Of a DNA stretch of 64,000 bases, positions 9,376-52,523 are shown piece by piece. The notes beneath the pieces are model-generated. The model ran no database searches. It was not told where the DNA came from and saw nothing but the letters and a program-made list of their open reading frames with translations. Location: the NCBI GenBank assembly GCA_025435555.1, contig JAIWWG010000024.1:62001-126000 (forward strand). Direction: 5' to 3'. Origin of the DNA: Chytriomyces cf. hyalinus JEL632. Taxonomy: Eukaryota > Chytridiomycota > Chytridiomycetes > Chytridiales > Chytriomycetaceae. The translations under genes and the position numbers were made by a program. Position 1 is the first letter of the stretch. Every line of letters starts with the position of its first letter.

Positions 9376-11983
9376 TCAAACTCCAAGAAACAAATCCACA
9401 GTCGCCTGCTTCATCTTATTTTGGAAATTGTCCGCGTAAAGTCTGGTAACACTGTTGAGCCCATCATTCAACATGCCTTTCACATTCCGAACACCCGTTC
9501 TCGTAAAGTCCGCTTTTAAAGCGCCCGTGCCCGTGTACGCTGTACTCAACGCGTCCCCATTGTCTGCCCACATGTTTTTAAATTGCGATTCAAAGCTCGG
9601 GGATAGCGTGGGAGTGTCTGGGTCCAGCAGTGGAAGACCCAGTTTGACGAGCATTTTCGTGAGCATGTGTCTTGCAAACAGTGATTGGACAACGTTTGTT
9701 CGGTCCAGGCAGTCCATGCAGTTTGTGCGCAGGATGCCGGATTGGGACATCATTGCGTCTGAATCTACTGACCAAAAGTGCCTTTAAAAAAAAAAAAAAC
9801 AAGATAAAAGTTTAAGAAAACACATTGTGGAGTGATTTCACAGGAAAAAACAAACGCGCTATGGTACTCACTTCATGCCATCGATTTCGGTTTCCAAGTT
9901 TGTTAGGAGTGTCTTGACGTTATCGTAGTTCAATCCTTTCGTCTGAACGTGGAAATCATAGTCATGGTAAAATAAGGTGGAATCATGCCCTTTTGCTTTA
10001 AGTGCATCCACGCTGGACTTGAAACGCGTTCCAAGCGGTTCCTCTCGGCCTTCTTGTCCGACCAGATCGACTGTATAAGTGTGATGATGTCAATTGAATT
10101 TCGTCATTCCGAAAAGTTTACTGCGTACCAATAACGATGGATTTATAAAGCCTTTCCAGTTCAGAAACATGAAGTTCCATAGCAGCAAGGTTTTCCTCGT
10201 CTGATTTTTCCAAGATGGGTGTTGGATTAAGTGTTTTTGTAGATGCAATTTGTTGCCAGTACAGAGGAATGGAACCACTGAGATCGGTGGGCATGGGAGA
10301 TGAGTATCCACAAAGCCTTTGAGAATCAAAAGTTCAAAATTACCGAATTTGCAAGAACGATCCAACATGCACACGATCTTCCACCTTTGCAAAAACAATC
10401 ATTTCAGTTTCGACGAAATTGGCAACACGACCTTGCGCATCGACACCCCGCCGCTCGTACCGCAACCCCGCACGATGCTTGTTTCTGCGACTGATGAGCG
10501 CAACATCGAACCCAGCCTGACCCGCCCGACCTTCTGCAGAACACACTTCGACAAATCCTTGAATCATGGGGCGAATCAGGTTTTTGGACTCTTTGAGTTC
10601 CAGGAACGGCTTCATTGCGTGGAAATTCCAAAAGAAACGCTCGTCTGGTTCAGTTGCTGTTTTTTGAGCTTCTGCGGTGCGCGTAATATCCCAGGGGCCT
10701 TCGCTGTAGAAAAACGTGTCCAATTCGAGCAGAGCTTTAATATCAGGCGCCTGAACGTGATCTTGTGTGACATCATTTGGCTGCATGACTTGATTTGGAA
10801 GCAAACTGTTGAGCGTGGGGAGAGTACTGAGCATCGTGCCTCGTGCTTGTTTCGGAGTGAGAGCAGGGGACGGCGGTTCTGACGCAGAAGTTGACAGGTG
10901 AGACCCATCGTCTTTTGCAGAAGCAGCCAAAACGTTTGCGGCTCCGGATGATGCAGGAGCAGTTTTGAATGGATTCAGAGCAGACAGTAAAGTTGACGGT
11001 TTAGCGTTGGCCGCCGCTTTCGAAGAGGGATCATTAATCAATGTGGACACTTCAGAAGACGCCCTTTCGGACACGGGGCTCGGAGTTGGGCTCCTGTTTG
11101 AAGACTCAGAGAGGCCTTCTGACTGACTTGGTCCATCAGCTTGGTTGACAATTTTTAGTGGCGCGGGCTTGAAAGGGTTCAACGCGGCCAGCAGCTTCGA
11201 AGAAGTGGTTGCGGATCTAAGTTCCTCGCCGCTGGTTCTTGGAGAAGCGGTGGGATCTTCTGAAACAGCCTCCTTTGCAGATGTTCCCCCAACAGTCGAT
11301 GAGATGGCGTTGAGTGTAGTTGAGACTGCGCCTAGACCCATTCCCAGCCCTGCTTTGACAGTTTCGACAGATCGTGTCCGAGTGTGAGTGAGTATCCCGT
11401 GGGAGTCGTTCGCAGCCGCAAGCGCGTCCGAAAGAGCAATCACTGCCTTGTCGTAGTTGAGCGGGATGACAACCACATGGGACACGCCGCACAATCCCAA
11501 CTCAGGCATCTTCGAATCAACTGATCCAGTTCTGGCATCAACAGCCACATGACCCAGTCGCTGTCTCTTTGCCACCAAAACAATGTTCGACTTCACAACA
11601 CCGATCAAGGCTGGCACTACAAAGCATCTCGGTGCATTCCCATCCGAACTGTGCAGATCTGCCGCAAGATTCGAAGCCATGGACGCAACAGCACTGAACG
11701 ACTTGGCCACATTGAACGCGAGCGTGTTTCCACGTCCTTCCAAGTGCAACTGCAGCGCTTGCTCGCGGGCCTTGTGCGCAACTGATAAACAGTCGGGTTC
11801 GCTTGTGACTTGGAACGACTCGTGCTTCTCATGTGCTTGACTAAAGTCGATGCGCACGCCCTCGTAGTCTGTCCCGGGCAAGGGTTCGGTCTCGAGGTCG
11901 ACGGCTGTGATGGCGTCCACGTCCATGGATGGAAGCGATCGCAGCAGAACGAACGACGCTGTCACGCACACCCACACTCCCAT
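9376..11983 (-). CDS. SAC1: SAC-domain phosphoinositide phosphatase
   Basis: Removes phosphates from phosphoinositides. The first exon (11983 to about 10340) has the N-terminal SAC half with FFYSEGPWDIT, FFWNFHAM, GFVEVC, LISRRNKHRAGLRYERRG and VANFVETE. Middle exons (10340-9790) include GSIPLYWQQ and the HDYDFHVQTKGLNYDN region. The last exon holds the catalytic CX5R(T/S) loop as RTNCMDCLDRTNVVQ. Between the N-terminal SAC strands and the FFYSEGPW motif lies an unusual low-complexity insertion of roughly 200 residues that contains two copies of LLxALNPFKxAP, each with an NPF tripeptide of the type bound by EH domains. The C-terminus ends LFLGV shortly after the SAC domain, and no C-terminal membrane anchor is seen, unlike ER SAC1. 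The closest role could therefore be SAC1-like or a soluble endocytic SAC protein. The gene runs tail to tail with DED1. Confidence 0.85.
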
Positions 11984-12164
11984 TTTAATGCGAAATATAA
12001 AAGTTGGTGCTGCCAAATTGGGCGGTGTCTCCCACAACAAAAATCGACGAGTCCCGTGGGTCAATCAATAACGGCAACAACGTCAAAGGATGTTTATTTA
12101 TTTATTTTTTCATACTGCCACGATATATCAATGAGATGAAGAGATGAGATGCGCAAATACTGTT

Positions 12165-21405: not shown

Positions 21406-23201
21406 CTATACGCGTGATCCAATCGCGGCAGGGACCGCCGTAATAGGGCTGGGGTCAGCGGAAGTTGGTGCTGGAGCAGTGGTCGGAGCCGACGAAGTCG
21501 GGTTTGGACGATCTACTACAGGACTTTCAGTTCCCACTGCTGACGCAGTTGGCACGTCTGATGGAAGTGGTGCGCCCGTTTCTGTAACAACAGTCGGTAC
21601 AACAATAGGACCAACTGGGTCAACACCAGTCTCAACACCGGAAGCAGTAGCCACAGTGCCAACATTGCCAGTCGTGGTTGCTGGCTGCCCATTGGGTTGC
21701 GCTGAGCTAACAGCAGGGGGTGGTGGCGGCGGCGGGCTGTCCGGCAAGGGTGGGGTTGAGTCTACAATCGTGGGGGGAGGTGGTGGTGGCGCGTCTGAGA
21801 ACACGGCCTGCAGAGCTTGCATGATGGGCTCTCCTTTGTTTTGCACGCGGTCAATCACAGCATCAATTTGGGACTTTGAGAAGGGACAGTTGATGTGAAG
21901 GTCATTGCTCAAAGTTGGAGCGAATCCAAACGGCTTCAACGCTGGGATCACGGAAGTTGCATCGTAGTGAATGGCCAACGGTCTAGTTCCGTTTTTACGG
22001 TCTGTAATTCCACAGGCAGATGCGATTTCGTTGATGGTTGGATCCGCCAGCAGGCCCAACTTGGGGTCTGGAGTGAAATCCAGGAGAAAGACCATTGTGT
22101 AGTTGATGGTTGCCTTTGCTGGGAATACTATGGCTCCATACTTTGAAGTTCCAATCACTGCGTTGAAGTCACCAGTGTAGCCTGCAGGTGGAGTTGGCGC
22201 TTTCCCAATCATGGCGACAAGAGCACCGAACGAAGTCAGAGGGGTTGTTTTAAGAGGGACACCGACGTAACTGGTGTTGACAGTGAGACGAGCCTACAGG
22301 TTAAAGTGAAAAGTTTAGTCCAGTTTCCGCAGCAGAAGTTCGATTCACCCACCAGCAGATCAATGCTCTCCACGCTCATGTCATACGAGTTTGGATTGTA
22401 CGTGCCCAGTTCCATGGACAGATTCATTCTGTACTGGAGGGTGTTGAGATCCTTCACATTTGGATCCTTGTATGTGAAGCTGTACGCTGAAGAGGACCCG
22501 ATAATGTTGGCAAAGTTGATGCTGTACACCTTGATTTGCGGGTATCGCGGGATGAACAGGTACATGATCACACCGAGAATGATGAGCACAACCGCAACAA
22601 CTCCACCGCAAATCATTCGGTGCATCTTGTTCTTGGGGCAGCAGCAGCACAGGAACCGTTCCATGTGCTGCTTCCACTGTGGCTCTTGCTCTTCCTTCAG
22701 CCACGGTTTATCTGTGGCGGCAATCGGTTTTACAGTTGGGAGACGAGACATTTCGTAGTCTTGTGCGGCATTGTTGTTGTTGTGGAACGTTGCCGGGTAA
22801 TGCGTGCTGTTGTCATTCGCATAAGTATTCTGACTAGGGAGAGGACCAGCAACGTAGTTATTGTAGTTGGAGTCATACCCGCCATATTGGGTCTGTTGCT
22901 GAGGCGGTTGGCCGTAGTACTGGTGTTGCTGTTGTTGTTGTTGCTGCTGGTGGTACTGCTGGTTGTAGGCACCGTACGTGTAGCCAGGTTGAGGCGCTTG
23001 TGGCTGCGATGGTTGTGGTTGGTATTGGTAGTTTGAGGTCTGGCTGTTCTGCTGGTCCGAGTAGGTGGCCGACTGCTCTGAATAGGCTGAAGTGGCCAGG
23101 CCGTACTGCTGCTGCTGTTGCTGTTGGGCCTGTTCGTGCTGCTGATGCCGCTGGGACGGTTGGCGTGGCTGGCGTGGCTGTGAGCGGGTCCGTTCACTCA
23201 T
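21406..23201 (-). CDS. Type II membrane protein with LEA2/NDR1-like domain
   Basis: Two exons. The N-terminal 150 residues are rich in Gln, Tyr and Asn with several polyglutamine runs (cytosolic). Then comes a Cys cluster FLCCCCPKNK, a candidate palmitoylation site, and one membrane span CGGVVAVVLIILGVIMYLF. After it, YPQIKVYSINFANI through LGTYNPNSYDMSVESIDLL resembles the LEA2/NDR1-HIN1 beta-sandwich (N-P-N near the strand turn). The second exon continues with NTSYVGVPLKTTP and N-glycosylation sequons, then a Pro-rich stretch (seven prolines twice) and a Thr/Ala/Pro-rich tail typical of an O-glycosylated wall-facing stalk. LEA2 domains bind lipids in some systems; the role here is unknown. 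The ATG at 23201 opens MSERTRSQ. Confidence 0.7.
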
Positions 23202-23286: not shown

Positions 23287-26200
23287 CTAAATGGTCAGAA
23301 CGTTGTTGTAGCCCATCCCGCGCATAAGATCCCCAATCTTGACATTCATCAGCGTCGGTCTGTATGCGCCGTGTTCAGCAACTGGGCCCGGAAACGCGTC
23401 GATAAAACTCACCCGCAAACAATGATGGCCGTCTGTAGAGTGTCGCTGGGGATCGACAGTGTACCATGTCGGCTCATTGTGGAGTGTGCACTGCCTGGGA
23501 ATGGAGGTTCCTCCGCCATGGCTGTTCTCGATATCGTGTTAGTAGGTCGCGTATTCGTCAGCTGCCTTCGCCGCTCCGCATCTACTGGATGAATTGGTTT
23601 CACAAATAGCTTGTACTTGAAATACAACAATGTCACTGTCGGTTGCGGGATAACTTACCGTCGTAGCGATCACTCCAGATACTCGATTTTGCTCTGGCAC
23701 CGGCGAGACTGGCAGCCCGAGATTCCTCGCTGAAACCCGTTGAATAAGGGCTCATGACCGACTTTTTCCAGAGAGGATTCGATATCTTTGGCATGGTCGC
23801 CGTAATCACTTCCGCGTTGATGGGACCCACGATGCCGTCAAACGTGTCACTTGCCTGTCCTGCAATGTATGTCACGGTCAAAGCTCCGCATGCGCGTGCT
23901 TCTAACTCTGCAATCTCTGCTCGCCCGAAAATGGACGCTTCGGTTGTGTTGCTGAATAAAAGATGGATTTGGAAGTCTGGTTTGTTTGTGACTGGGTCAC
24001 GCTTGCAGTTTCGCAGGTGGTAGTCAATAATCAGAATTATTGCAGTAACACCTGGTCGGGAGAAAAATTGCGTGTTGACGACGCCAGCTAAAAAATACCA
24101 AGGCGCGTGTTGTGTGTACCTGTTCCTCCAGCGATAAGACCCAAAACTTTCCAGTTGCCAGAGTCAGAATATGGATTTAATAAGGTTGCTCGCGGGATTG
24201 GGCCTCTCATCCTCACTGACTTTGATCTCATACTGTGCGTACACTTAGAAATCTGCTGAAAAGATGTGAGCAGCGCGCGGATGGACTTACATGTAACTCG
24301 TCATTTCTCCGTCGTACATTTTGATCATGAAGTCAATACCACCTTTCGTCACACAGTCAAGAGGGGTGTACGACCGGGTGACTAATTTCCCCGTTTTATC
24401 AGCAAATTGGAATAAATAAGAATCGCCGGGTTTGGACAGCATCTCAGCATCTTCATCTTGGAAAATGATGCGCACTTTGTAAACCGGATGCAAGGAATCC
24501 GGCGTGGTCAGAAGCTCCATGTTTCCAATCACATAAAACTTGAAGACATTCACTTGCACGGGAATTGCAGTCAAGCGCGTCATTCCCAGCTCCAGCAAAC
24601 TGTCGGATCGCTTCTTTGGCAACAGCCTGCGCTTCTCTTCCTCCACATCCGCATCCACTTGCTCCTCATCCTTCAACAGGGTGCCCATGGCATACGCTGA
24701 CAGCAAGTTATGCGCCAAGCGAGAATGGTCGTGCTTCAGCTTTTCAATTTCATCGTCAAATTTGTGCAGCTCGATTGCTTTCTTGAGTTTGAGGCCGTAC
24801 TTTTGGTCCCTGTCAAGCGTCTGTCTCTTCTTGGGGTCAAACACGAAAGCGGCATCTATTCCAATCATTTGGCAGATGGACTCTGGACCACCGGGATGCA
24901 TAATTAAATACTTTTGAACGTCGTCTGGTTTTTAGGGAGAATTGTGTGTCAGCTACCACCGGCACCTGATCTTTGCAACACTCACAAATCACATCGTCAA
25001 TAACGATCCATTTCGCTCCCAGAGACACTCGCTGGTTCACATCATCCCATCGAAACAAGGGAAGCTTGTTGAGTCCCATATCATCCTTTGATGACAGCGG
25101 CATATGCTTCAGCCGTTCTCCATACACAAACAAAGTCACTGGGAAAATGAGCGTAACAATCAAAAATGAGAGCTCTAGGTAGATTTCCGTTCCCGTTGCT
25201 GTGCTCAGTTCTCCGACGCCAAGATAACACGCTGCCAGCCCAACGAGATACGCAGCAAACCCAGAATATCGATGAAATACTCTCAAAACTGCCGCCAAAC
25301 GACTGTAGCAATGATGCTTTGCGTAAAGCCGCATTGCAAAGTAACCAAATGCGAAACTTGCAAACACCAAGACAATGACGGCCATCCCGACTTTGTAATG
25401 CAAGGAATTCGAGTTTCCAAAGGATCCAATGATGGCAGTCAGGGCAGCAACGAGTACGTTGGAAGTGACATTGTTCATGATGGTTGTGTGCAGCGAAAGC
25501 CATTTGCCCAGGTTTCGATGATACCGCGCAATGTGGATTCCCAGCGGACACAAGATTGCAAATGCAATAAACATGAAAAAGCTATGCAGAATAATAAGAC
25601 TGGACAGAGACCTGGTCGCGATGGGCGTAACACCGGCCGAGAAGAAGTTGACAATTGTGTGAACCCGGTTTGAAGGGCCGTGCCAGAGTAGCTTTGTGGA
25701 TGATGAGCAAGCGAATATGACGTCCATGTCTCCATCAATTATATCTGTGTCGAAATCATCTCCTGTTTGCAGTTGCCGCGTGAAAGTGACAACTCTCGTC
25801 GATTTGTTTTGGTAAGCAGTGACATCAAAAGTGCGCTTGACATTGCTTTTCCCGCCAAAACCAACATCCGACGATATTGGCTGGGTAAAATAGCTGGCGC
25901 TATGTTAGCTCACATTGCGTGAAAGGAGAATATTCCTGACCTGTACGAGTCTTGCACTGAGAAAGCCCCACTTCCGTCATCATTGCAGAAATAAATATCG
26001 GCTCCTTTCATGCTTGTACCAAACCCAAATCCAAACCACCCAGTGGTATTGCTTTCAAAAACAAAAGTGATGGATTGGTCCGCAAGAGAAATATTCCAGG
26101 AAAGCCGCAATTTATCCAAAACCGACACTGACGGCAACCCCTTTTCCCTTTTCACCTGCGAAGCGGGACCCACTGCAAAGTATCCAAGACTTGCATTCAA

Positions 26201-28136
26201 AGCAACAAAAGGGTCGTCGGGGAAATACTCAACGTCCGTGTTCAAAGTGATTACACGCCCAAGACTCATGGTGGCCATCTCATTTGCTTCCTCCTCAGCG
26301 AGAACGCCAGCATTTTGGTACCAGAATCTGTCACCGTCTCGGAGTCGTTGAAATTGTTCGCGAATTGAGGCTGCTGTCAAAGACCCAACAAGGCTGTTTG
26401 GCTCTTTACTTTTTTCGGCCATCGAGCCTGAGAAAATGCAGTTTAGCACACTTGCAATTGCAGTAGTTATCCCAGGTATCTTCTCCAACTGACCGACACT
26501 GGCATCAAGGTCATTTATATCGGGATAAAGCTCCGCCAGCATTTGCTGCTCATCTTCGTCGCTAGTTAAATCCTTCCACGAAGATACTGTTGGCAGATTG
26601 AATGCTTTTCTGCAGGAATTATAGTCGCACATTCCGACATCGCGGCCTCTGTTTTCGAAAACAAGTGCCTGAGTCTTTCATCGAACATAAAGCAGCAATA
26701 AGTCCAACCTCTGAATCCCAATCGCAATCAAATCATAATTAAATCCTGGATTAACTTGAAGGTTGCTCCGCACGTCGTCGTTCGCATTAGCATCAACAAC
26801 TTGATTCCGCTGCGTGATGAACCCTCGCACGAGAGAGTCGATACCAGCGAGGCTGACTTCTTCGCAGAGATTTCTAAACATGGCATCCCTCAAGTACATG
26901 TGACCTTCTTTGGATTGTTCTCCTTTATCGTCGATGCGGTACACCACCTCGTTCAGAGTGCTGTGGCCGTAGATGGACGCGACCTGGCTGAAGAACAAGT
27001 CAATCTGAGGATTTACAGACTCCTTGTAACCAAGATACGGCGGTAGTGGAGATCCAGTGAGCGCCGGAACGTACTGACCATTGAATGTCGACTGTCAGTG
27101 AAAGTAGCGGCATATCCACAAAGCGCGCTCACGTATTCTACCGACACCATTTGAATGAGGGAAATCACCCAGCGTCGGCTTCGTTGGTATATATGCTCAT
27201 CAGACCAATTCGGATTCGCGACATGCAACAGTCGTGCGCGTCGGTTATGTTCTCGAAACAGCAAAATGTACAGTGTCAGGGAGTGCTGCGCCAAGAATCG
27301 CTGTAAGCACTCCTTATTGTGTCAAAATTAAACTTACTGGTGCGCTGTTTATGCTTGGATTGGTGAACGCGAAGTATCCGTCTTTTCGACCCCCAACAAT
27401 TCGTGGTGGATACTCCCCAGTCGCTAACTTGGTGCTCTTCAGCAGTCCCCTTTTAAACAGCCGCATTGACGCAGCTTCCGTTGCCGAGTTACCGTACAGA
27501 CCACTCCCGTCAATGTAGCTGGAGAATGAGTTGCTTAGTATTCGGTAGCTGTCCTTCTCATCGATGCCCGAGTATGCCGCTCTGAACATAGGAATGATGG
27601 ATTTGTTTGCACCGAAGGGATCAAAGTCTGGGTCTCCAGCTGGCACCGGAATGTGAAACGCGTCGGCTGAACGTTTGCAAACAGTTGAGCATTCAATCCA
27701 AAAATCATCTGAAAATTAGAAGTTGTGCGCACAGGTATTCTTGGCCGCAAAGTTTGTGTCAAAGTGCAATGCGTATCCCCACGCCACCAGAAAGTCCGAT
27801 GTGCCGAGTTCATTTTGAAGAATATGTCGTCTTCCAAAGAGCTTGTTTGAAATAACGCGGGCATTGGCTCTATCGCGGCCTGAGGGAGCTGCTACCCGGT
27901 GGGGAAACCTGTCAGATCAGCAGGCGCAAGTCAAACCACTACTTGCCTTGCTGTGGCCCGTACGCTGGCTGTGTCGTCCGAAGAAACGCCTCTCCAACAG
28001 CCCCCGTCCAGGGCCGCTTCAAGTTATTCCCGTGTCCATTGTACGATTGGATCTCCATCAGCGTTGAATCATTTGAAGCGGATGCAAGCGCAACCAGTGT
28101 GACGAGAAAGACTGACAAATGCATTTTTTTGCGCAT
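23287..28136 (-). CDS. Peroxidase-DOMON-cytochrome b561-cytochrome b5-flavoreductase fusion
   Basis: Twelve exons sum to 4350 nt, a 1449-residue protein with no internal stop. Order: signal peptide (about 1-22); animal-type haem peroxidase (about 75-565) with PAGDPDFDP, DGSGLYG, FREHNRRA, proximal-His motif YGHSTLNE (His near 346) and RGRDVGMCDYN; DOMON domain (about 607-770) with GWFGFGFG; cytochrome b561 (about 765-910) with several helices and spaced His in ILH, LSLH, LHYKVG and FHRYSGF; b5-like domain with YDVQKYLIMHPGG (His near 981); FAD domain with RSYTPL (near 1155); NAD domain with IAGGTGV (near 1217) and VCGPT (near 1425). Expected topology: peroxidase and DOMON outside, b5 and reductase inside, so NAD(P)H electrons could cross the membrane to the outer haems. 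The second b5 axial His is replaced by Arg, and the distal peroxidase His is out of register. Very short introns occur. HEM2 starts 31 bp away, divergently. Confidence 0.85.
23636..23658 (-). other. Apparent 23-nt intron in the reductase part
   Basis: The frame WSDRYDG runs into a stop after RNRQ. Removing GTAAGT to CGACAG gives WSDRYDVTLLYFKYKL, a plausible reductase strand, and the total coding length stays a multiple of three. Other acceptors downstream give the wrong phase. Confidence 0.55.
27709..27732 (-). other. Apparent 24-nt intron in the peroxidase exon series
   Basis: Reading through hits a TAA after KNTCAHNF. Removing GTGCGC to TTTTCAG gives KNTYDDFWIEC and keeps the frame. A CTAAT branch-like sequence lies just before the acceptor. 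No longer alternative fits the peroxidase reading. Confidence 0.6.
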
Positions 28137-29549
<1,413 letters not shown>

Positions 29550-42154: not shown

Positions 42155-45100
42155 ATGGCTGAGCGCGAGCCTGCAGCAGCACCATGCACCACCGCACCAG
42201 GAGAAGGCATGAATGGAGTCGCCGCTGAGGGAGTCACAAGAGAGAGAGAGGGCTCCATGGCCTCGCCGTCACTCAACTCCATTGCCCCACCAGCCCAGCC
42301 TGCCCTGAACGACTCGTCACTCGCTGCCGCAGCCAGGAAACCCAGTAAAGTGCTTACAAGAGATACGTACTCAAACACGGCCATGTCCTACTCTTTCCCT
42401 TCTCCATCTACCACGACACCGTCTCCGTCACCGCTTGCGAGGGATGCAAAGAAGAAGGGCACCACTGGACAGCAAGTAAAAAGCAGGATCGCTGCATTTG
42501 AAACCATTGGTCAGAAGGAGAAAGCGGCCCTGATGCCGAAGTGCGTAATTTCATTTCACATGCTGTCACCCACCCTGTTTAACCCATGCATTCATCGCCA
42601 TTGAAACTGCACCCATCTCGCAATCATCATTACATCAGACAAAGATCAACAACAAACAACCAGAAAGCTGCCGGCGCTGATATCGCTCCGAAACAACCCT
42701 ATAGAAGCCCCTATGCGTATACACCCGTGAAAGTACCAGCCGTCGCATCCCCGACCCCAAAACGCTCGTCAGATACCCCCTCAGAGAAGAATACGTCCAG
42801 CTTTCAATCAAACTCCAAAAATACCCAGGGACCATCGTACACGAGTCCGTACGCTTACAAACCAACTGGACATTCGAAGCGATTGGTCGAAGTGGACGAG
42901 CAGGGAGACCCAATCGAGCGAAGATCCTCGACTGCGTCCTCGGTTGCGTCAGGTAGTTGGTCTCGTTTAAATCCACCTGCAGTGATTCTGCAGTTCTGTA
43001 TTTAACCGCAATTATCCACTCTCAGCCAACAACAAGAACGTTGGATCGAAAAGAGGTTCAGCAGAATCATCCACTTCAGGTTCCGCGATATTTTTATTTT
43101 CGATCGTTACAAAAAAATTGCAAGCCCTGACCCACTTTCGCATCAGCTGGTCGGAAGGCAGGACATGTGCGCAAAGCCAGTCTTGTAAGTTCCACATCAA
43201 TCACCCCCTCGACAAAACCCCAATGGAAAGTAGTCGGCCCACCGCAAGTTCACTTAAGCAGCAGCACAACAACCCCCCGGGTTCTTTACAAGGCGTCCTC
43301 CAGAGGGTACACAAAGTCAATGAGCCCATCATCCCCCATCAGCTCCAGTGATGCGTTTGCGTCCAAACTCACCTCTATCACTAGTACAGCAACTGTTACA
43401 ATTGCCGCACGAAATCAGATGGCCGCTGGGCTCGGAAGTCGAGACGTGAAGCGTCCAGCTCCGTCTCCAAAACAAAAGCCTACCATGACTGCAACTACCA
43501 TTCGGCTGGCTCCTGGAATGAAGCCTTCAGATGTGAAAGCCGCTAGTCGCCTGGCTGCTGCTGCGAATGCTCCATCCGCTGAGCCTCCAAAAGCCAAAGC
43601 ACCCGTCCCAGATAAGCGGCCACAAACTCCGAAGCAGTCGCAGTCGAATGTTTCCTCCCCTAGATCGAGGACGGCAAGTCCAGCACCTGGTGCGAAATCC
43701 ATCAAAAAGACACTTTCGAACACATCAACTACACCGGCATCTCCATCCATGCTCAAAACCTCATCCAAAATTGGCTCTGGGTCTTCAAAGCTTCCCATCA
43801 CTTCGTTAAAGATTGTTACAGTGGAAGAAACACCATCCTCCCCACTTGCAACTATCCCACCAGCAGCCGCTTCAGTGATTTCTCCGATTTCTCCACCTGC
43901 AGTTACAACTGCAGTCGAAATACCGAAGATTGAGTCGACAACGACGATGCCTGAAATTGCGACCGTGGAAACTGCTCGGGTGGCAACGGCGGACCCACCA
44001 TCCCTTGCCGAGATTAGTGACGAAGCGAATGTCGTCGGCCTCGTCGTTGACTGTGCGAAAATCACCGACAAAGAAACAGCCACTTCCGAAGCAGCAGTCC
44101 CCATTGTCGAACCCGCTGCAGCGTCTACCCCATCAGACACAGCTATTCCCCCCGTCGAAGAAAAGAAGGTTGCCCGCCGATTAACCATGTTGACGGGATG
44201 GCTATTTGGCAAAAAGTCAACGACAACGCCACCCGTGAGCGAGCCGGCAGTAAGTGCGGGCGACTCGCAGGATGCTGCGAGTACTATTTCAATGTTGAAC
44301 GGCGCTGTCGAGGAGGCAATTCAGCCGGAGGTGGTTGTTGAAGAAAGCGCTGCAGGAGGTGTTGTGGCGGAAGTCGGAAAACCTGTCAGAGAAGAAAATC
44401 CTGCAGAAGAAGCAATTGCCGCAGTTCCGATAGATGTTAAATCCGAAGTGGTGGAGGCTGAGACATCAGTTCCTGTGGAAGACACCATTGAACAAAACGA
44501 TGTCTTCCCTCAAGTGGTTGAAGAAGTTTCTGCCCCCGAACCAGCTGTAACTGAAAGAAAAGTAGAGGCACCCGAAGTACCTGTCATGACGTCTGAAGTT
44601 GTCACGCAATTAGAAAACGAGGATGTTAAGATGGCCGATGCCACAGTGGCCGCTTCCACTGGAATTCCAGCTCCGATTGAACAAAATGTTGCGGAAGAAA
44701 GTCTGATTGCCGAACCTGCGGTTACTGCATCTGTAACTACTGAAGTCAAAGCTACGGAGTCGATTGTGAAAGAAACCGACCGAATGGACGTGGTACTGGA
44801 AGAGGATGAAGAAGAATGCAGTACTCCTATTGACACTGTACCGGCGTCTGAGGCATCTACGATTGTCCCTGAGGAAGTTTCAGTTCCAGCTGTTGTTGTT
44901 TCCCAGGAGCGAGATGTCCTGTCCGTTGTTCCCGAAGGGCATGAAGAGGATGAGACAACCGATATGGACGATCAAATGCATATTCCTCGTCCTGCGAACA
45001 AACTTTTCGATGACATTGACACGGATTTGTCAGAGGACGTTCCAGTCGAGAGTGTTTCTCTGCGTGATATGGTCGTGGACGAACTCAAAAATAACATTCC

Positions 45101-46552
45101 TATCCTGGCTGAGCGGATCTCTCTAGATGACCTAGAAAAGGAACAACTTGCCATTGATCAAGAAGGTCCGGTTGAGCATCCTGTGTTGAAAAATCTGCTG
45201 ACGGAGCGCCATATTCCCGTGGAGCGAGTTGCTCTGGATCAGCTTATGTTTGAAACTCGAACAGACAGTGATTCAAGTCGGTCGGGTAGTTATGGGGATA
45301 TTGATATGCTCCGGCGCCCTTCCCCACCTTCGACGCCAGAAACAATTTACGATGCCAAGCCATTCCATATTTCAGATTTCAAACTCATCAAAACTGTGGG
45401 AACTGGGTCGTTTGGTCGAGTCCATTTAGCCCTTCACACGCAAACAAACACTTACGTTGCCCTGAAAGTGCTACGTAAACACGATGTCGTCAAGTTGAAG
45501 CAGGTTGAACACACTCTCGATGAAAAGCGAATTCTCGAAGCGCTTTGCAATGGTTGTCCTTTCCTCGTGCATCTGTACGGCTCGTTTATGGATTGCGAAT
45601 ATCTCTACCTCGTCCTGGAATACATTCAGGGTGGTGAGCTTTTCACATACCTGCGAAATGTGGACAAGTTGGACAACGAGTCTGCCAAGTTCTACGCCGC
45701 GGAAGTGGTTCTTGCGTTTGAGTACTTGCACAGTGCCAACGTTGTATATCGCGATTTGAAGCCAGAAAACTTGCTGATTGACAACAGAGGACACATCCGC
45801 GTTACTGATTTTGGATTTGCAAAACATCTTGATGGTGACGAGACGCATACGCTTTGTGGAACTCCGGATTATTTGGCACCTGAAGTGGTTAGTGTACCTA
45901 ATGTTGATGGAGTTGAGTTGCTCGTTTCTTCATCGGAGTGTTTTGTAGTTTTTGTTTTGTTTTGTTTTGCCAGAAGCAACCTGGTATTGGCACTGACAAA
46001 AAACCTGTAATACTTACCCCATTTCCGTTCCAACAAATTCCCAGATTCAGGCAAAGGGCTATGGTAAAGCTGTTGACTGGTGGGCACTTGGAATCCTCAT
46101 TTACGAAATGATTGCTGGCCATCCACCCTTCTTTGATGATGATCCGTTCCGTCTGTACGAAAAAATTGTGGCATGCCGTCTTGCTTTCCCGCCTTTCATG
46201 CATCCATTGGCCAAAGACTTGATTCGTCGGCTGCTAACACCGGACTTGTCCCGGCGGTATGGAAACCTGCGAGATGGAGCCTTGGACATCAAGATGCACC
46301 CGTGGTTTCAAGGGATTGACTGGGATGCAATGTGGGAGCTTAGAATGGATGCACCGTATATTCCAGACGTTGAGGGTGACGGTGATACATCACACGTGAG
46401 TATTTAGATGCTTGTTATGTTTTCAAGAATCTCCTCGTCCGTCTGTTAAAATCCCATTCTCCACCGCACAGTTTGACGAATACGAAGAGGATTACGCTCC
46501 ATACGGCCGCAATGTTCCTGACCCATATGCCGACATATTCAAAGACTTTTAA
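42155..46552 (+). CDS. Protein kinase A catalytic subunit with very long N-terminal extension
   Basis: cAMP-dependent protein kinase-type AGC kinase. Exons 42155-42540, 42639-42952, 43026-43079, about 43152-45888, 46046-46396 and 46471-46552. The kinase core lies in the last third: [64 protein letters not shown], the activation loop [14 protein letters not shown] with the PDK1-site Thr, and [12 protein letters not shown]. The C-terminal tail [12 protein letters not shown] ends IFKDF, the FxxF motif of PKA. About 850-900 residues precede the kinase: Ser/Pro/Lys-rich, with two SPYAY units ([16 protein letters not shown]), and then strongly acidic Val/Glu-rich stretches. PKA catalytic subunits are usually near 350-400 residues with a short N-tail, so the extension is exceptional. 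A 265-residue antisense frame is a shadow. Confidence 0.9.
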
Positions 46553-47010: not shown

Positions 47011-47083
47011 TGTTCTCGCCCGGGATCGAACCGGGGACCACAAGTGTGTTAGACTTGTGTGATAACCACTACACCACGAGAAC
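47011..47083 (-). tRNA. tRNA-Val (anticodon AAC)
   Basis: On the minus strand the acceptor arms GTTCTCG and CGAGAAC pair perfectly. The D arm holds GTGTAGTGGTTATCAC, the anticodon arm has stem CAAGT/ACTTG with loop CTAACAC, giving anticodon AAC (Val). The T arm reads CCCCGGTTCGATCCCGGGG, with GTTCGAT loop and matching box B; GTGTAGTGG provides box A. The discriminator is A. No intron. The likeness to eukaryotic tRNA-Val(AAC) is close. Confidence 0.95.
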
Positions 47084-47375: not shown

Positions 47376-50300
47376 TCAAAATGTCGAAAACTTGGCCAGA
47401 AAAATAAAGGTTTTCCACAAGAATGAAGTGGGGAACTCAACTATTTCTTCTTCCTTTTCGTAAACGCGCTCTCCGCTTCCGTCTACAACGATACGCGTGT
47501 TTCCCCATGAGAAATCGTCAAAATGCCAGAACGAGTAGATGGGCAGGTAAAAGCTGTAGATTGGGATAGCGAGAATGTACTGTCCATGTAGAATCAAAGA
47601 TGTTGTTAGTGTTGGTTGGTTTTTTTGTGAGTGCGATAGTTTGGAAGAAAAAGCAAGAGATGGGGGTCATACTATTATCATCCAGCCCAAATGTTGAAAT
47701 TCGCCTTTCAACATAAAGATGACCATCTGGGCACCGTAAATGGCGGCAATCATGATGAGAGAAAAGAGTGGTACTTTTTGCGAGGTGTCACTGACAGCGG
47801 AGTAGATCAAGTACCCAAAGTACATGATGGCTGAATGTGATGTTTCAGAGAGACTTACTTGACACGTCCACACCAGGCGAGAAAGATCTTACCTGAGGGC
47901 TGCGCCAAAGTCGAAAACAAATCCAAAAATACAACAACTCGCATAGAAAACATGCAGCAGCCGCACAACTGCGGAAGCAACAGCAGCTCCAACAATGTGT
48001 GTACCGTGGAATTGATCCATCTTCGTCTCTGACTCACAAAAACTCCCCACCTACTCGGAGCAATCGTCTTACATTTAGCATCCGCAGAAAACGTCAGCTT
48101 GTATCCGGGAAAATGCTTCATCATGAGAGTGGTCAAATATCGATCTTCTCCAAGGTGGAGCAGATTCTTTAAATGCAGCGTATCGACTTGGTTGATTGAG
48201 AAATCGCGAATCACGTCTTGCGAAATGAGAAACGGCGTTCGATTTGCGTTGCTTCGAATTCGGTACATTGAAAAACAGCCGCTTGAAAAGGTTTATGAGA
48301 TTCATTACATATCCAACAGAAACAACAACAAAAACTCACGGCAAGCACGTGACAGATCCAAACGTAGATTCAAACTGTTTCGATAAATGGTGCGAAATAA
48401 AGTACTCGTACACCTGGATGGCCGTCACCCAGGACTCCATCTCGTTGCCGACCATGGTCTCGCCACAAATTCCAATCACGCGAGAATCGCGGATCAAACA
48501 CGCAACAAGTCGATTGATGGAGTCCTTGAAAATCTCAGTGTCGGCGTCCACCCACAAAAGGTATTCAAACCATTGTGGGTCCAACGAAAGACGCGTTTTT
48601 AAATGCCGTACAATTTCAAGCTCCAGCGGGCTCATCTCAGCGTCCGTGTGCACGTGGCTTAGGAAACGCATAATGAGCAATTGTGTGTCACGTTTGCCTC
48701 TGTTTGGCGTTTTTAAACATGTTTTTGGCAAACATTTCAGTATTCAATTGGGGGGCCCAAGAACTACCATTTCACCTGTTGCCTGGTCTGCTATTTTCAT
48801 TCGGTGTCCCAACTTTCGCAACAACAATATACGGCATTGATTTCCCTTGAATTGCGTAATACCCTGAATAGACTTTTGCACGATTCATTTGCTTCATACC
48901 CTCCCCAAGACTTTGAAACAGCAATGACTCCACAGGTCCTTCATGATCTTCCTTCCAGCCCAACACGTCCAACACAATCTGAGGCGTTGGTCGATCGTTT
49001 CCACCACCAACAATCATTCCGTCCGAAATAACAAACAGCAGCTTCCGCTCGTCTTGGTAGGAACACATGAGAAGTGATTCAAACGTCTTTCGCAAGCTTT
49101 CTTCGCCTTCAGTGTAGCAAGGGACTTGGATCATGACGAATTTGTCGTGGTTTTCGGGATTTCGACGTCCTGCGCATTGAAGGGCCGTGATAAACTGCGA
49201 CAACGCGTTTTTTCACTTCAGTGCCAAGTCACGTTTGATAGTCATTCAAAAAAGGTACCAGCCTTCAATCCGATAATCACTGCAAGAATCGCGCTGGCTC
49301 CAAGCATGATGTAGTTTGAAATGAGACAGCGCTGGTCATTCCGACGGTCAATAACTCCCGTCAAAAATAGGCCGTTCAAGCAGCCCATGTAGTCGGCCCA
49401 TTTTTTGTTGCCTTCGAGTTGCCGGACTTGATCCAAGAATTGCGTCGCATCCACACCAGTTCCCTAAAAAAAAAAAAAGAATTCAACAATCGCGGGGAGA
49501 AACAAAAATAGAATACAAAATTAACCCCAAGCTCAGAAATAATGCGCCCAATGTTTAAGCCCAGAAAGTTCTTGTTCACTTGAGAGGTAGCATACGCGCT
49601 GACGTCATACACGTTCCCATACGCAATCAGCAGCCGGTTATTGGCAGGATCCGCACTCAGAAACTGATCAATCCAAGCCTTGTCCCTGGCAACCATCCCT
49701 TTTCGCATGTACGCCACGCTCGCAACATAGTCAATGGGTTTCCCAGTGGACGCACTGTTTCCTTGGTGGGGATACCACACTTTGATGGCATCTTTTGGGA
49801 TCGTGCGGATAATGTTGTCGAATCCGCTGGGTTGTGGGAGAGCACAGTAGTTTGGCCAGACGGTTGTTTTGTAAAACATGGCGGAAACATCGTGACCAAG
49901 TGTTGTCTGGTAAAGTACCAGTGTGTTGGCAACTCAAACTAAACAATATAACAACGTACCTGCTCCATGGCAGCAATGTTGAGATAGTCTTGGTTGGACA
50001 CGTGATCTTTGACAATGTCAGGGATCAGGTAGTATGCACCATACATTGCAACAACGGGTTTGGCCGTGGTGTTCATGCCGTCAATCTCTCCTTGCGACAG
50101 GACTTTTTGCACTGGACAGAGGATCTGACCCAGTCCAATAATGAGAAATAAAATAATGGAACAAACAACTGCTGAGATAATGCAAAGCTGAAAACGTTGT
50201 CGAAGTTAGTCTGCAAATTTCGTCAAAAAAATCACGAAACACTCACTGTGACTTTCTCCCTCCAAGCCATCTGAATATCCGGCCGCTTTAATTTACAGCA

Positions 50301-52523
50301 AATCCGCAAAGCAAGGGTCGGAATGTACCATGTCAAGCTCCATGTGAAGCAAATCCATCTCTTTCTCATTTTCGAAATCGGTTCAACAACACGGACAGTC
50401 CGCCGTGGACCTGGAGTCTCCTTCATGACATTGACACTTTCCAAACCAGCAGGTCCACCAAGTTTCTCTACAGCATCACTCCTTGTCGACTCATCTTCAT
50501 CGCCGGCCATGGATGCGGCCAATTCTGCCTCCATCATCTCAGTTTCCTGCGTCTTTATATCTTCCAGCCCCAGATGAGCCTCGAGCTCGCGCCACGCGTC
50601 TTCGACCAAGAAAATGCGCGTTTTGGCAATGACGACCTGTTCATCCGTGAACGCAAACCCAAGCGCAATTGCGGCACACGTCTTTGCAGGTTCACTGTCC
50701 TGCGACTTGACATCGTCATCAACACATGCCGCATACCGCTTGGCAAATTGAGCGTGTGAGAATGATGCTGTAAACTTGGGGCCAGCGGCGGCTGCGAGTT
50801 GGACGAGGCGCAATCGAGATATTTGTGCCGAGATGAGGGAAGGATCGAGACGTGCGGTTCCTGTGTCGACCACTGCAATCAACCACGGCGTTGTGGCTGA
50901 CAAACTGGCGGCAACATCTTGAGCAAACAGGCTTGAACTGCAAGCCGGTGCTTCGTTTTCAGGGTGTACCATATAGGATAGAATGGCGTGTACTGGGTTC
51001 TCGGCTTGAAGAGATGACGTTTCGAGAAGCTGCTTGATCATCTGCACGTCTTCGTGGCTGTCAGTCAAGGTGTGAGAATCTGAGCCCTGATTCGTCATGG
51101 TCGGCTCTTCGAAAAGCGCGTCTCTTGTTTCGACTCCCTCATCTTTCAGTAACTGAGACGCCTCGATTTGGTCTGTCACAACTTTCGAAAGCGCTCCATT
51201 CCAAATATTCAAGCTGCTTTTGGCTTCGTGATGACGGCGATTCGGCACATCGGCGTCTTCAATCGACGTTAGAACTTGTATAAAATGCGAGAATCCAATA
51301 AACTCCTGCTTGCACAGTTTCTGGTTGATGCGCATCACAGCCCACTGAACGATTGCTTCGTACAACATACAGACAAGGGCATCCCTTCGTTTCTGGGATT
51401 GTTCGGCGGTGAGAAGGACTGTGTACGCATCTCCTCCAGGTTGGTGGACGTTACGCGTAACAAGCAGTGTTTCCAGTGATTCTGGACCCATTTTGAGTAG
51501 AATCGCCAGTGAAGATACAAGAGAGGTGTCGTCTTTTAAGCGGCAGTGGATAGATGAATCGGCCTCGTGGGTTGTATCAACGAAGGAGACGTGGGTGAGC
51601 AAACATACAACTGCCAACAAGGAGTGAACAGCGTTGATGTGCCTTTGCTTGAAACCCAAGGGAACCAAAGCTTGTGACAAGTTGAACGGTTTGTTTTTCA
51701 CTGCTCGTCCATCCAGCAGCAGCTTCAACACCGCATGGTTTGCGCCGAGGATATTGCTAAAGTGGTTTGAAGCATCCGAACTGTGGGAAATAAACTGTTT
51801 CGCGTGCTGACTAATACTTTGGATCATACTGCGAGCATTGCTGTCGGCGACAGACACCACCGCCACTTTGGCACCGACAATTGCACCGTATATGTTGAAC
51901 TGGTACTCGAACGAGGCGGCAAAGAAGGAGCCGATCATACTGTGGATTGTACTGGCTACCTGCTCAATGCGGGAAGTAGTCTTGCAGGAGCGCGCTTGTG
52001 CCCGTGTTTGCTGGCTGGAAGCAGTGAATGCTTGCTGCAGGCGCAACAGATGTTGAACCACGTGGACATGCATGCTTCCTACTCGACTATGCTGGGTGTC
52101 TGTGGAGTCGGCAGAGCCTCTGTTTGACTGTTAGCTTGAGTTTCTGGAGAGTGTGGTAAGTCGTACTCACGCCATGATCAGAATGGACTGGTCTGCCCTT
52201 GCTTGCAGCAGGTGCATGTACGCACAATCCACCAAATCAAACGCATGGACAGACATTGTGGAAGGATTTGCAGAAGAAGTCACGAAGCGCTGCACCCTCT
52301 TCTCGCTTTCAGCCTCGACGCTCTCAACGCTTCTTGCCGTGTTCAAGACAACCACAGCCCTGTCTCCAATGCGAGAGTGGACATAACCGCGTGCAAGTCT
52401 GCCGCACAAGACGCGCGTAAGGGAAATCTCGTTGACGGGTTTGATGTTTGACAGGTTCTCTTCCAAAGAGTCTGGCTCTGCATCTGCTGTTGCAGCGTAG
52501 CGACCGACACGTACTTGGTGCAT
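47376..52523 (-). CDS. Chitin synthase with N-terminal myosin-motor-like domain
   Basis: Class V-type plasma-membrane chitin synthase. The N-terminal half resembles a myosin head: [53 protein letters not shown] and [17 protein letters not shown]. The P-loop position is degenerate: after SILIM the spliced frame gives ARVGSMH, with no GxGK. The synthase half has [15 protein letters not shown], a b5-like segment with [17 protein letters not shown] (substrate DxD region), [11 protein letters not shown] and QRRRWINS, the catalytic hallmark, then membrane helices and DDFSWGNTR. The C-terminus stops near [10 protein letters not shown], so the DEK_C tail found in many class V enzymes seems absent. 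About ten introns. ATG at 52523 opens [10 protein letters not shown]. Confidence 0.9.

Follow-up and report, generated by a model that had tools for sequence, protein, structure and literature searches.

A gene on the minus strand of a 64,000-nucleotide stretch of the genome of Chytriomyces cf. hyalinus JEL632 (contig JAIWWG010000024.1; C156:62001-126000 in our numbering, hereafter the window) encodes a predicted polypeptide that joins a signal peptide, an animal-type peroxidase domain, a DOMON domain, a cytochrome b561 core, a cytochrome b5-like domain and an FAD/NAD(P)-binding reductase. The active site of the peroxidase domain has been lost, and a second copy of the gene is present in the genome. 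On balance we favor the view that the protein is a self-contained trans-plasma-membrane electron carrier, which would pass electrons from NAD(P)H inside the cell to an acceptor outside, and in which the peroxidase domain would be a non-catalytic ectodomain.

The gene is real, and its domain order is present in the sequence at 23287..28124 (-) of the window, from an ATG at 28124 to a stop at 23287. Our final model has 13 exons (28124-27947, 27888-27733, 27666-27338, 27285-27133, 27073-26709, 26648-26494, 26427-25941, 25899-24986, 24924-24291, 24232-24120, 24051-23659, 23584-23413, and 23359-23287, all on the minus strand) and 1373 residues; its spliced translation lacks internal stops, and one polypeptide from this predicted gene is well supported. 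The introns measure 41–74 nt, and intron 1 is of the GC-AG type. A preliminary description of this DNA had given a 1449-residue reading, of which the order and place hold; our intron choices, and with them the length, differ. A first splice model (12 exons, 1445 residues, introns of 23–68 nt) was likewise set aside: guided by the paralog described below and by sequence similarity, introns 1, 2, 3, 4, and 11 were lengthened and intron 6 was added. With these changes the score against the Pfam An_peroxidase profile rose from 343.7 to 365.9 bits, and the match now spans nearly the full profile. As the older and newer versions both keep the frame, we chose the introns by resemblance to the paralog and to other peroxidases. 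A second in-frame ATG is found at 28133, and by eye an end of intron 7 that lies 6 nt later is possible. If intron 2 ended early (after 24 nt), the frame at 27708-27667 (-) would read YDFWIECSTVCKRSAD, which resembles a Cys motif found in animal peroxidases; no such motif is present in the paralog, and the reading may reflect chance or alternative splicing.

Domains were called with Pfam profiles on the final protein, with families listed to E = 1 (the HMMER filters drop most matches above 0.1). The order found is An_peroxidase, DOMON, Cytochrom_B561, Cyt-b5, FAD_binding_6, and NAD_binding_1. A putative signal peptide, recognized by eye from the translation (residues about 1–17, MHLSVFLVTLVALASAS; 28074..28124 (-)), is followed by the animal-type peroxidase domain (residues 26–515, 26219..28049 (-); 4e-109) and the DOMON domain (residues 551–671, 25710..26113 (-); 68.8 bits, 7e-19). 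The candidate heme ligands of the latter are Met585 (26011-26009 (-)) and His681 (25682-25680 (-), just beyond the Pfam match). The cytochrome b561 core (residues about 707–866, 25125..25604 (-)) has five hydrophobic segments and histidines at 713, 745, 775, and 817; the Cytochrom_B561 match (residues 712–838, 3e-4) reaches 21.6 bits against a curated cutoff of 23. It is followed by the cytochrome b5-like domain (residues about 892–995, 24677..25049 (-); Cyt-b5 match 892–942, 33.5 bits, 4e-8), with His922 in an HPGG motif, then an insert, then His977 and His979 in an HxHS motif. Finally, the reductase comprises an FAD-binding domain (residues 1077–1136, 24196..24433 (-); 24.2 bits, 4e-5) with RSYT at 1096–1099, and an NAD(P)-binding domain that runs from residue 1156 to the C-terminus (23290..24138 (-); NAD_binding_1 match 1156–1249, 3e-7), with GGTG at 1159–1162, CGP at 1349–1351, and a poorly conserved insert of about 90–100 residues. 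Met585, His681, the four b561 histidines and the b5 histidines are identical in the paralog. The single polypeptide with its modules in this order, as claimed in the preliminary description, is borne out by the profile matches and by the full-length paralog; the five domains named there are all listed in sequence, with b561 under its cutoff.

We accept the b561 call because of the four conserved histidines, the five hydrophobic segments with positive-inside loops, and matches to other DOMON-b561 loci. In a tblastn search with the final protein, residues 571–871 and 530–849 each match, at 25% identity, an ordinary DOMON-b561 locus elsewhere in the genome (E 4e-13 and 6e-12; the two loci are L027 on contig C2 and L028 on contig C212). 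Together with L017 and L032 these are the loci matched, and the significant hits are confined to the DOMON-b561 part; the earlier 1445-residue model had given no match at E 1e-3 in loci L012–L025. The arrangement resembles that of the CYBDOM proteins, which combine DOMON with cytochrome b561 (plant HYP1/CRR, human SDR2, insect CG8399): an outer DOMON with Met/His candidates lies N-terminal to a b561 core with four histidines. By analogy, Met585 and His681 are candidate equivalents of M90 and H174, given as the DOMON heme ligands of HYP1 in a passage of its description (PMC10784544). Some CYBDOMs also carry an extra N-terminal ectodomain, an adhesion module (reeler) according to part of a published account (PMC10691727). 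The target differs in that its ectodomain is a decayed peroxidase and that a b5 and a b5 reductase are fused to the inner side. By the sequence features compared it can be described as CYBDOM-like with its own reductase, with the b561 match below cutoff. A named family with this domain order was not found among the papers listed in searches of the openly licensed PMC literature, nor did titles and the beginnings of abstracts among them reveal a paper on a fungal CYBDOM.

A search of the whole genome (37.8 Mb, 242 contigs) with the An_peroxidase profile gave 11 matches in two places only, the target gene and C79:179056-180966 (all eight first-look candidates were scored). The genome also has 13 matches to the Fungal_trans domain and one IFT46 locus, matched in three pieces, as would suit a flagellated fungus. 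The second place belongs to a full-length paralog (L009:4469-9580, on contig C79) with the same domain order. Its peroxidase, DOMON, b5, and FAD matches are above cutoff and its b561 match, at 16.7 bits, is below; the NAD part aligns with that of the target, yet has no Pfam NAD_binding_1 match. The two proteins are 44.8% identical over 1331 aligned residues (by rough region 0.30 in the lead, 0.49 in the peroxidase, 0.54 in linker and DOMON, 0.38 in b561, 0.42 in b5, and 0.41 in the reductase). Ten of the 12 target introns have the same place and phase in the paralog, an agreement that is partly circular, as each model drew on the other: the paralog guided the correction of the target model, and the target protein was used to model the paralog. 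Identity at codon positions 1, 2, and 3 is 0.559, 0.666, and 0.337, respectively, a pattern of selection on protein-coding sequence. Judged by this comparison, the join of modules in the target is not a matter of chance. The shared order, the identity, the intron agreement and the codon pattern indicate that the fusion very likely predates the duplication that gave rise to the two genes. A scan of viral_contigs with the two-gene alignment found no relative.

The paralog also bears on whether two neighboring genes, one for a secreted peroxidase and one for a DOMON-b561-b5-reductase, were misread as one. The single-gene model was derived from genomic sequence alone, which leaves room for this explanation; however, no stop interrupts the open exon (26427-25941) that spans the end of the peroxidase and the start of DOMON, and this junction recurs in the paralog with the same flanking introns. 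We regard a misreading of this kind as extremely improbable.

To assess the peroxidase domain, target and paralog were aligned with PDB chain 8s6c, with peroxinectin A, MPO, LPO, and human DUOX1, and with 79 relatives from bacteria. The bacterial rows are the best 80 of at least 542 confirmed loci, minus L112 (which has a stop within the match), and the search patterns that yielded them leave out the scored active-site residues. Residues were read at MPO Gln91, Asp94, His95, Arg239, Glu242, His336, and Asn421, which we take to be, in this numbering, the distal Gln, a heme-ester acid, the distal His, the catalytic Arg, the other heme-ester acid, the proximal His, and the proximal Asn. The target has Y, H, F, S, S, H, and G at these positions; those of the paralog are V, H, L, N, M, H, and G. 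The distal Gln and His, the catalytic Arg and the proximal Asn, replaced in both copies, are kept in 79 of the 79 bacterial rows, as is the proximal His; Asp and Glu are each found in 78, and both of these acids are lost in the two copies as well. The distal helix of the target reads WGYALHFD (residues 96–103, 27758..27781 (-)) where MPO, LPO, and 8s6c have WGQxxDHD, so that the distal Gln, Asp, and His are gone and the calcium-ligand Asp remains. We initially regarded the Arg/Glu motif as deleted; the alignment shows replacement instead (S216, S219). The proximal histidine is H309 (26963..26965 (-)), a Ser in human DUOX1, and a new distal-helix histidine, His101, is present, like His309, in target and paralog. 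The calcium-site residues D103, S160, D164, and S166 are also kept in the target. The domain shares fold, length and calcium site with peroxidase-cyclooxygenase superfamily members (8s6c, peroxinectin A, MPO, and the bacterial relatives), from which it differs by the loss of the catalytic and heme-fixing residues other than the proximal His.

Of the residues by which an active animal-type heme peroxidase was judged here (the Gln, His, and Arg on the distal side and the His-Asn pair on the proximal side), both copies keep the proximal His only. By these residues the target is not an active animal-type peroxidase, and because the replacements are found in both copies against all 79 bacterial rows, the domain is probably neither a working peroxidase nor the electron sink. 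The preliminary description had the electrons delivered to an extracellular peroxidase, which would then have to be a working one. The proximal His, kept in both copies, and the strong match to the peroxidase fold speak for that view; the replacement, in both copies, of Gln, His, and Arg on the distal side and of the proximal Asn makes it very improbable. A passage of a 2015 review counts the catalytic Arg among the typical distal residues of the superfamily (PMC4420034).

How the rest of the protein would work can be proposed from its anatomy, which agrees with the trans-membrane NAD(P)H chain suggested in the preliminary description. In the numbering of the 1445-residue model, the predicted inner loops of b561 have 3, 5, and 4 K/R, and the predicted outer loops have none. 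Together with the signal peptide, this positive-inside pattern assigns DOMON and peroxidase to the outer face and b5 and reductase to the cell interior; the N-glycosylation sequons of the final model (eight in the outer part, one in a membrane segment, one in the inner part) are consistent with this topology. The best PDB matches of the reductase part are NADH-cytochrome b5 reductases, the natural partners of a b5. As in these enzymes and their b5 fusions, a b5 precedes FAD_binding_6 and NAD_binding_1; the target differs from them in the connection to a trans-membrane b561 and outer domains and in the insert in its NAD domain. In the proposed mechanism the cytochrome b5 reductase-like FAD/NAD module would take electrons from NAD(P)H inside the cell, NADH being the probable donor, and pass them from FAD to the heme of the fused b5. 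From there they would cross the membrane by way of the inner and then the outer b561 heme, reach the DOMON heme on the outside, and leave for an outside acceptor. The peroxidase domain would be a calcium-stabilized ectodomain that may aid folding, dock a partner or substrate, or shield the DOMON heme, comparable to the structural role proposed for the domain in human DUOX1, which is without heme as well. Plant HYP1 takes electrons from ascorbate via its b561-DOMON and reduces ferric and cupric substrates, according to a passage of its description (PMC10784544); the target, with its b5 and b5 reductase joined on at the inner side, is likely to use NAD(P)H as donor in place of ascorbate. Ferric reductase activity is likewise known for insect CG8399 and, in vitro, for human SDR2, as stated in part of the account cited above (PMC10691727). 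Because HYP1, CG8399, and SDR2 reduce metals, ferric or cupric chelates would be the first choice of acceptor by analogy, and oxygen the second.

Instead of a metal, the acceptor might be an organic radical on the outside, which would make the protein a monodehydroascorbate or quinone reductase. We consider this quite improbable, since erythroascorbate is what fungi mostly use and a fused reductase would remove the need for ascorbate as donor. In its favor, the regeneration of ascorbate is presented as established for certain b561 proteins (PMC10691727, in part).

Several points weigh against the carrier that we favor. The proposal was made from sequence alone, and the acceptor was taken from plant and animal CYBDOMs only. 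The b561 score is slightly below its cutoff in the target and well below it in the paralog. The paralog reads RSYW for RSYT, EGIG for GGTG, and CGS for CGP and has no NAD_binding_1 match, from which its reductase may be failing; among the two gene copies, an intact reductase would then be no rule. The genome has 11 Ferric_reduct matches on 8 contigs, and may therefore have no need of the target protein for metal reduction. As to the ectodomain, the His-Asn pair is not universal, with families 4 and 7 excepted in a passage of the 2015 review (PMC4420034), so that loss of the Asn is not telling by itself.

The overall plan of the target resembles that of DUOX: an outer peroxidase-homology domain without working heme-site residues but with calcium-site residues, a membrane heme core, and an inner FAD/NAD module. 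The preliminary description had seen this likeness and the different membrane core, and DOMON-b561-b5 indeed takes the place of a Ferric_reduct match. Ferric_reduct, FAD_binding_8, NAD_binding_6, and EF-hand families were all absent from the matches that Pfam listed for the target to E = 1, in a scan that included no DUOX as positive control. With the NOX core and EF hands looked for and not found, the target is, on its predicted domains, not a DUOX. A search for DUOXA, the maturation partner of DUOX, had no match in the genome and matched no control genome either. The preliminary description had also read PAGDPDFDP and DGSGLYG as signs of DUOX; this did not hold, as 8s6c reads GDPFFDPF too, and the phmmer scores of the peroxidase domain fall from 220 bits for 8s6c through 170 for peroxinectin A and 143 for MPO to 92 for DUOX1. 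Its identity to these proteins is 37, 32, 29, and 27%, respectively, and reaches 41% in the bacterial rows (L077; among the best 80 of at least 542 loci).

Human DUOX1 has Y, L, S, R, R, S, and C at the seven MPO columns, and its calcium-site residues are kept. It has lost the proximal His and kept the Arg, while target and paralog show the reverse, which suggests that the peroxidase site was lost by partly different residues. As described in part of its cryo-EM study, the peroxidase domain of human DUOX1 lacks heme and has two cation sites, with a proposed role in stability; one of them, CBS2, is formed by D109, T170, D174, and S176 (PMC7794343). The 2015 review, in a passage on DUOX, calls the function of the domain "obscure" and notes the missing proximal His (PMC4420034). 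Titles of cited references credit peroxidase-type activity to some DUOX proteins, which counts against a blanket rule.

Trees of the peroxidase domain, both built on the 1445-residue model, weakly place it with DUOX1. FastTree (86 rows) joins the two at 0.865. A mixture-model tree of 34 rows (27 of the 79 bacterial rows, taken as every third, and the seven named rows) groups them at 86/90, with an explicit long-branch warning, and did not reject a grouping with peroxinectin A (p-AU 0.367). On this placement, shared ancestry with the DUOX peroxidase domain is neither shown nor excluded. Part of a published study of NOX evolution (PMC9421330) treats DUOX as a clade of metazoans and divides fungal NOX into NOXA-C and unclassified chytrid forms. 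There is a tentative possibility that the dual-oxidase plan was assembled a second time in fungi from other parts, as an NAD(P)H-driven b5-b561-DOMON heme wire with a peroxidase cap that decayed in parallel to DUOX and kept its calcium site. In the boldest form of this idea, His309 and His101 may hold a heme, and the former peroxidase center would now be the outermost, electron-exit cytochrome of a five-heme wire; an electron-carrying heme in the domain is conceivable because the proximal His is kept and the new distal-helix His is found in both copies.

The same plan would also fit an analogue of dual oxidase in function, in which the chain reduces outside oxygen to superoxide or hydrogen peroxide and the dead domain aids the conversion of superoxide to peroxide or provides a docking site for a partner, roles that have also been supposed in DUOX. 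Heme-site residues have been lost from the peroxidase domain in both proteins; however, the oxygen-reducing center (Arg1087/His1148 in DUOX1, in the part of the cryo-EM study that describes it) sits in the NOX core, which the target lacks (PMC7794343). In addition, the CYBDOMs described in the passages cited above reduce metals, and the Ferric_reduct genes already present in the genome may include NOX. We consider such an oxidase unlikely.

That a decayed peroxidase domain is paired with an electron chain is clear from the predicted protein, unlike any independence of the pairing from DUOX. With DUOX, this would make two pairings of a decayed peroxidase domain with a trans-membrane NAD(P)H chain. 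If they arose independently, the pairing itself would be useful, and one could compare the demands that two unrelated cores place on one kind of dead domain. The target bears in this way on the role of the inactive DUOX peroxidase domain, an open question according to a passage of the 2015 review (PMC4420034). If the carrier that we favor is correct, it would represent, in a fungus, a b561 system freed from ascorbate by a built-in reductase, and would offer biochemistry a compact multi-heme wire.

Head-to-head with the target gene lies the only ALAD locus found in the genome (5-aminolevulinate dehydratase, heme biosynthesis; 28168-29528 (+)), with start codons 43 nt apart. It is attractive to suppose that the two genes, one for an enzyme that makes heme and one for a predicted multi-heme protein, may share a promoter. 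Downstream, the target is closely followed in its own orientation by a Gln-rich open frame of 321 residues (22236-23201 (-)), which has a hydrophobic segment by eye. The other neighbors in the window are ordinary: a SacI-homology domain (10343-12064 (-)), a protein kinase (43167-46007 (+)), a tRNA-Val (47011-47083 (-)), and a myosin head (50235-52073 (-)). Elsewhere in the genome, b561 genes are clustered, with four matches on C212:50377-72047 and two on C2:160094-168823. A further DOMON-b561 pair on C225 (8077-8960 (-) and 18726-19609 (+)) has equal scores and opposite orientation at a distance of about 10 kb; the stretches around the two differ in letters, and the pair is perhaps a recent inverted duplication.

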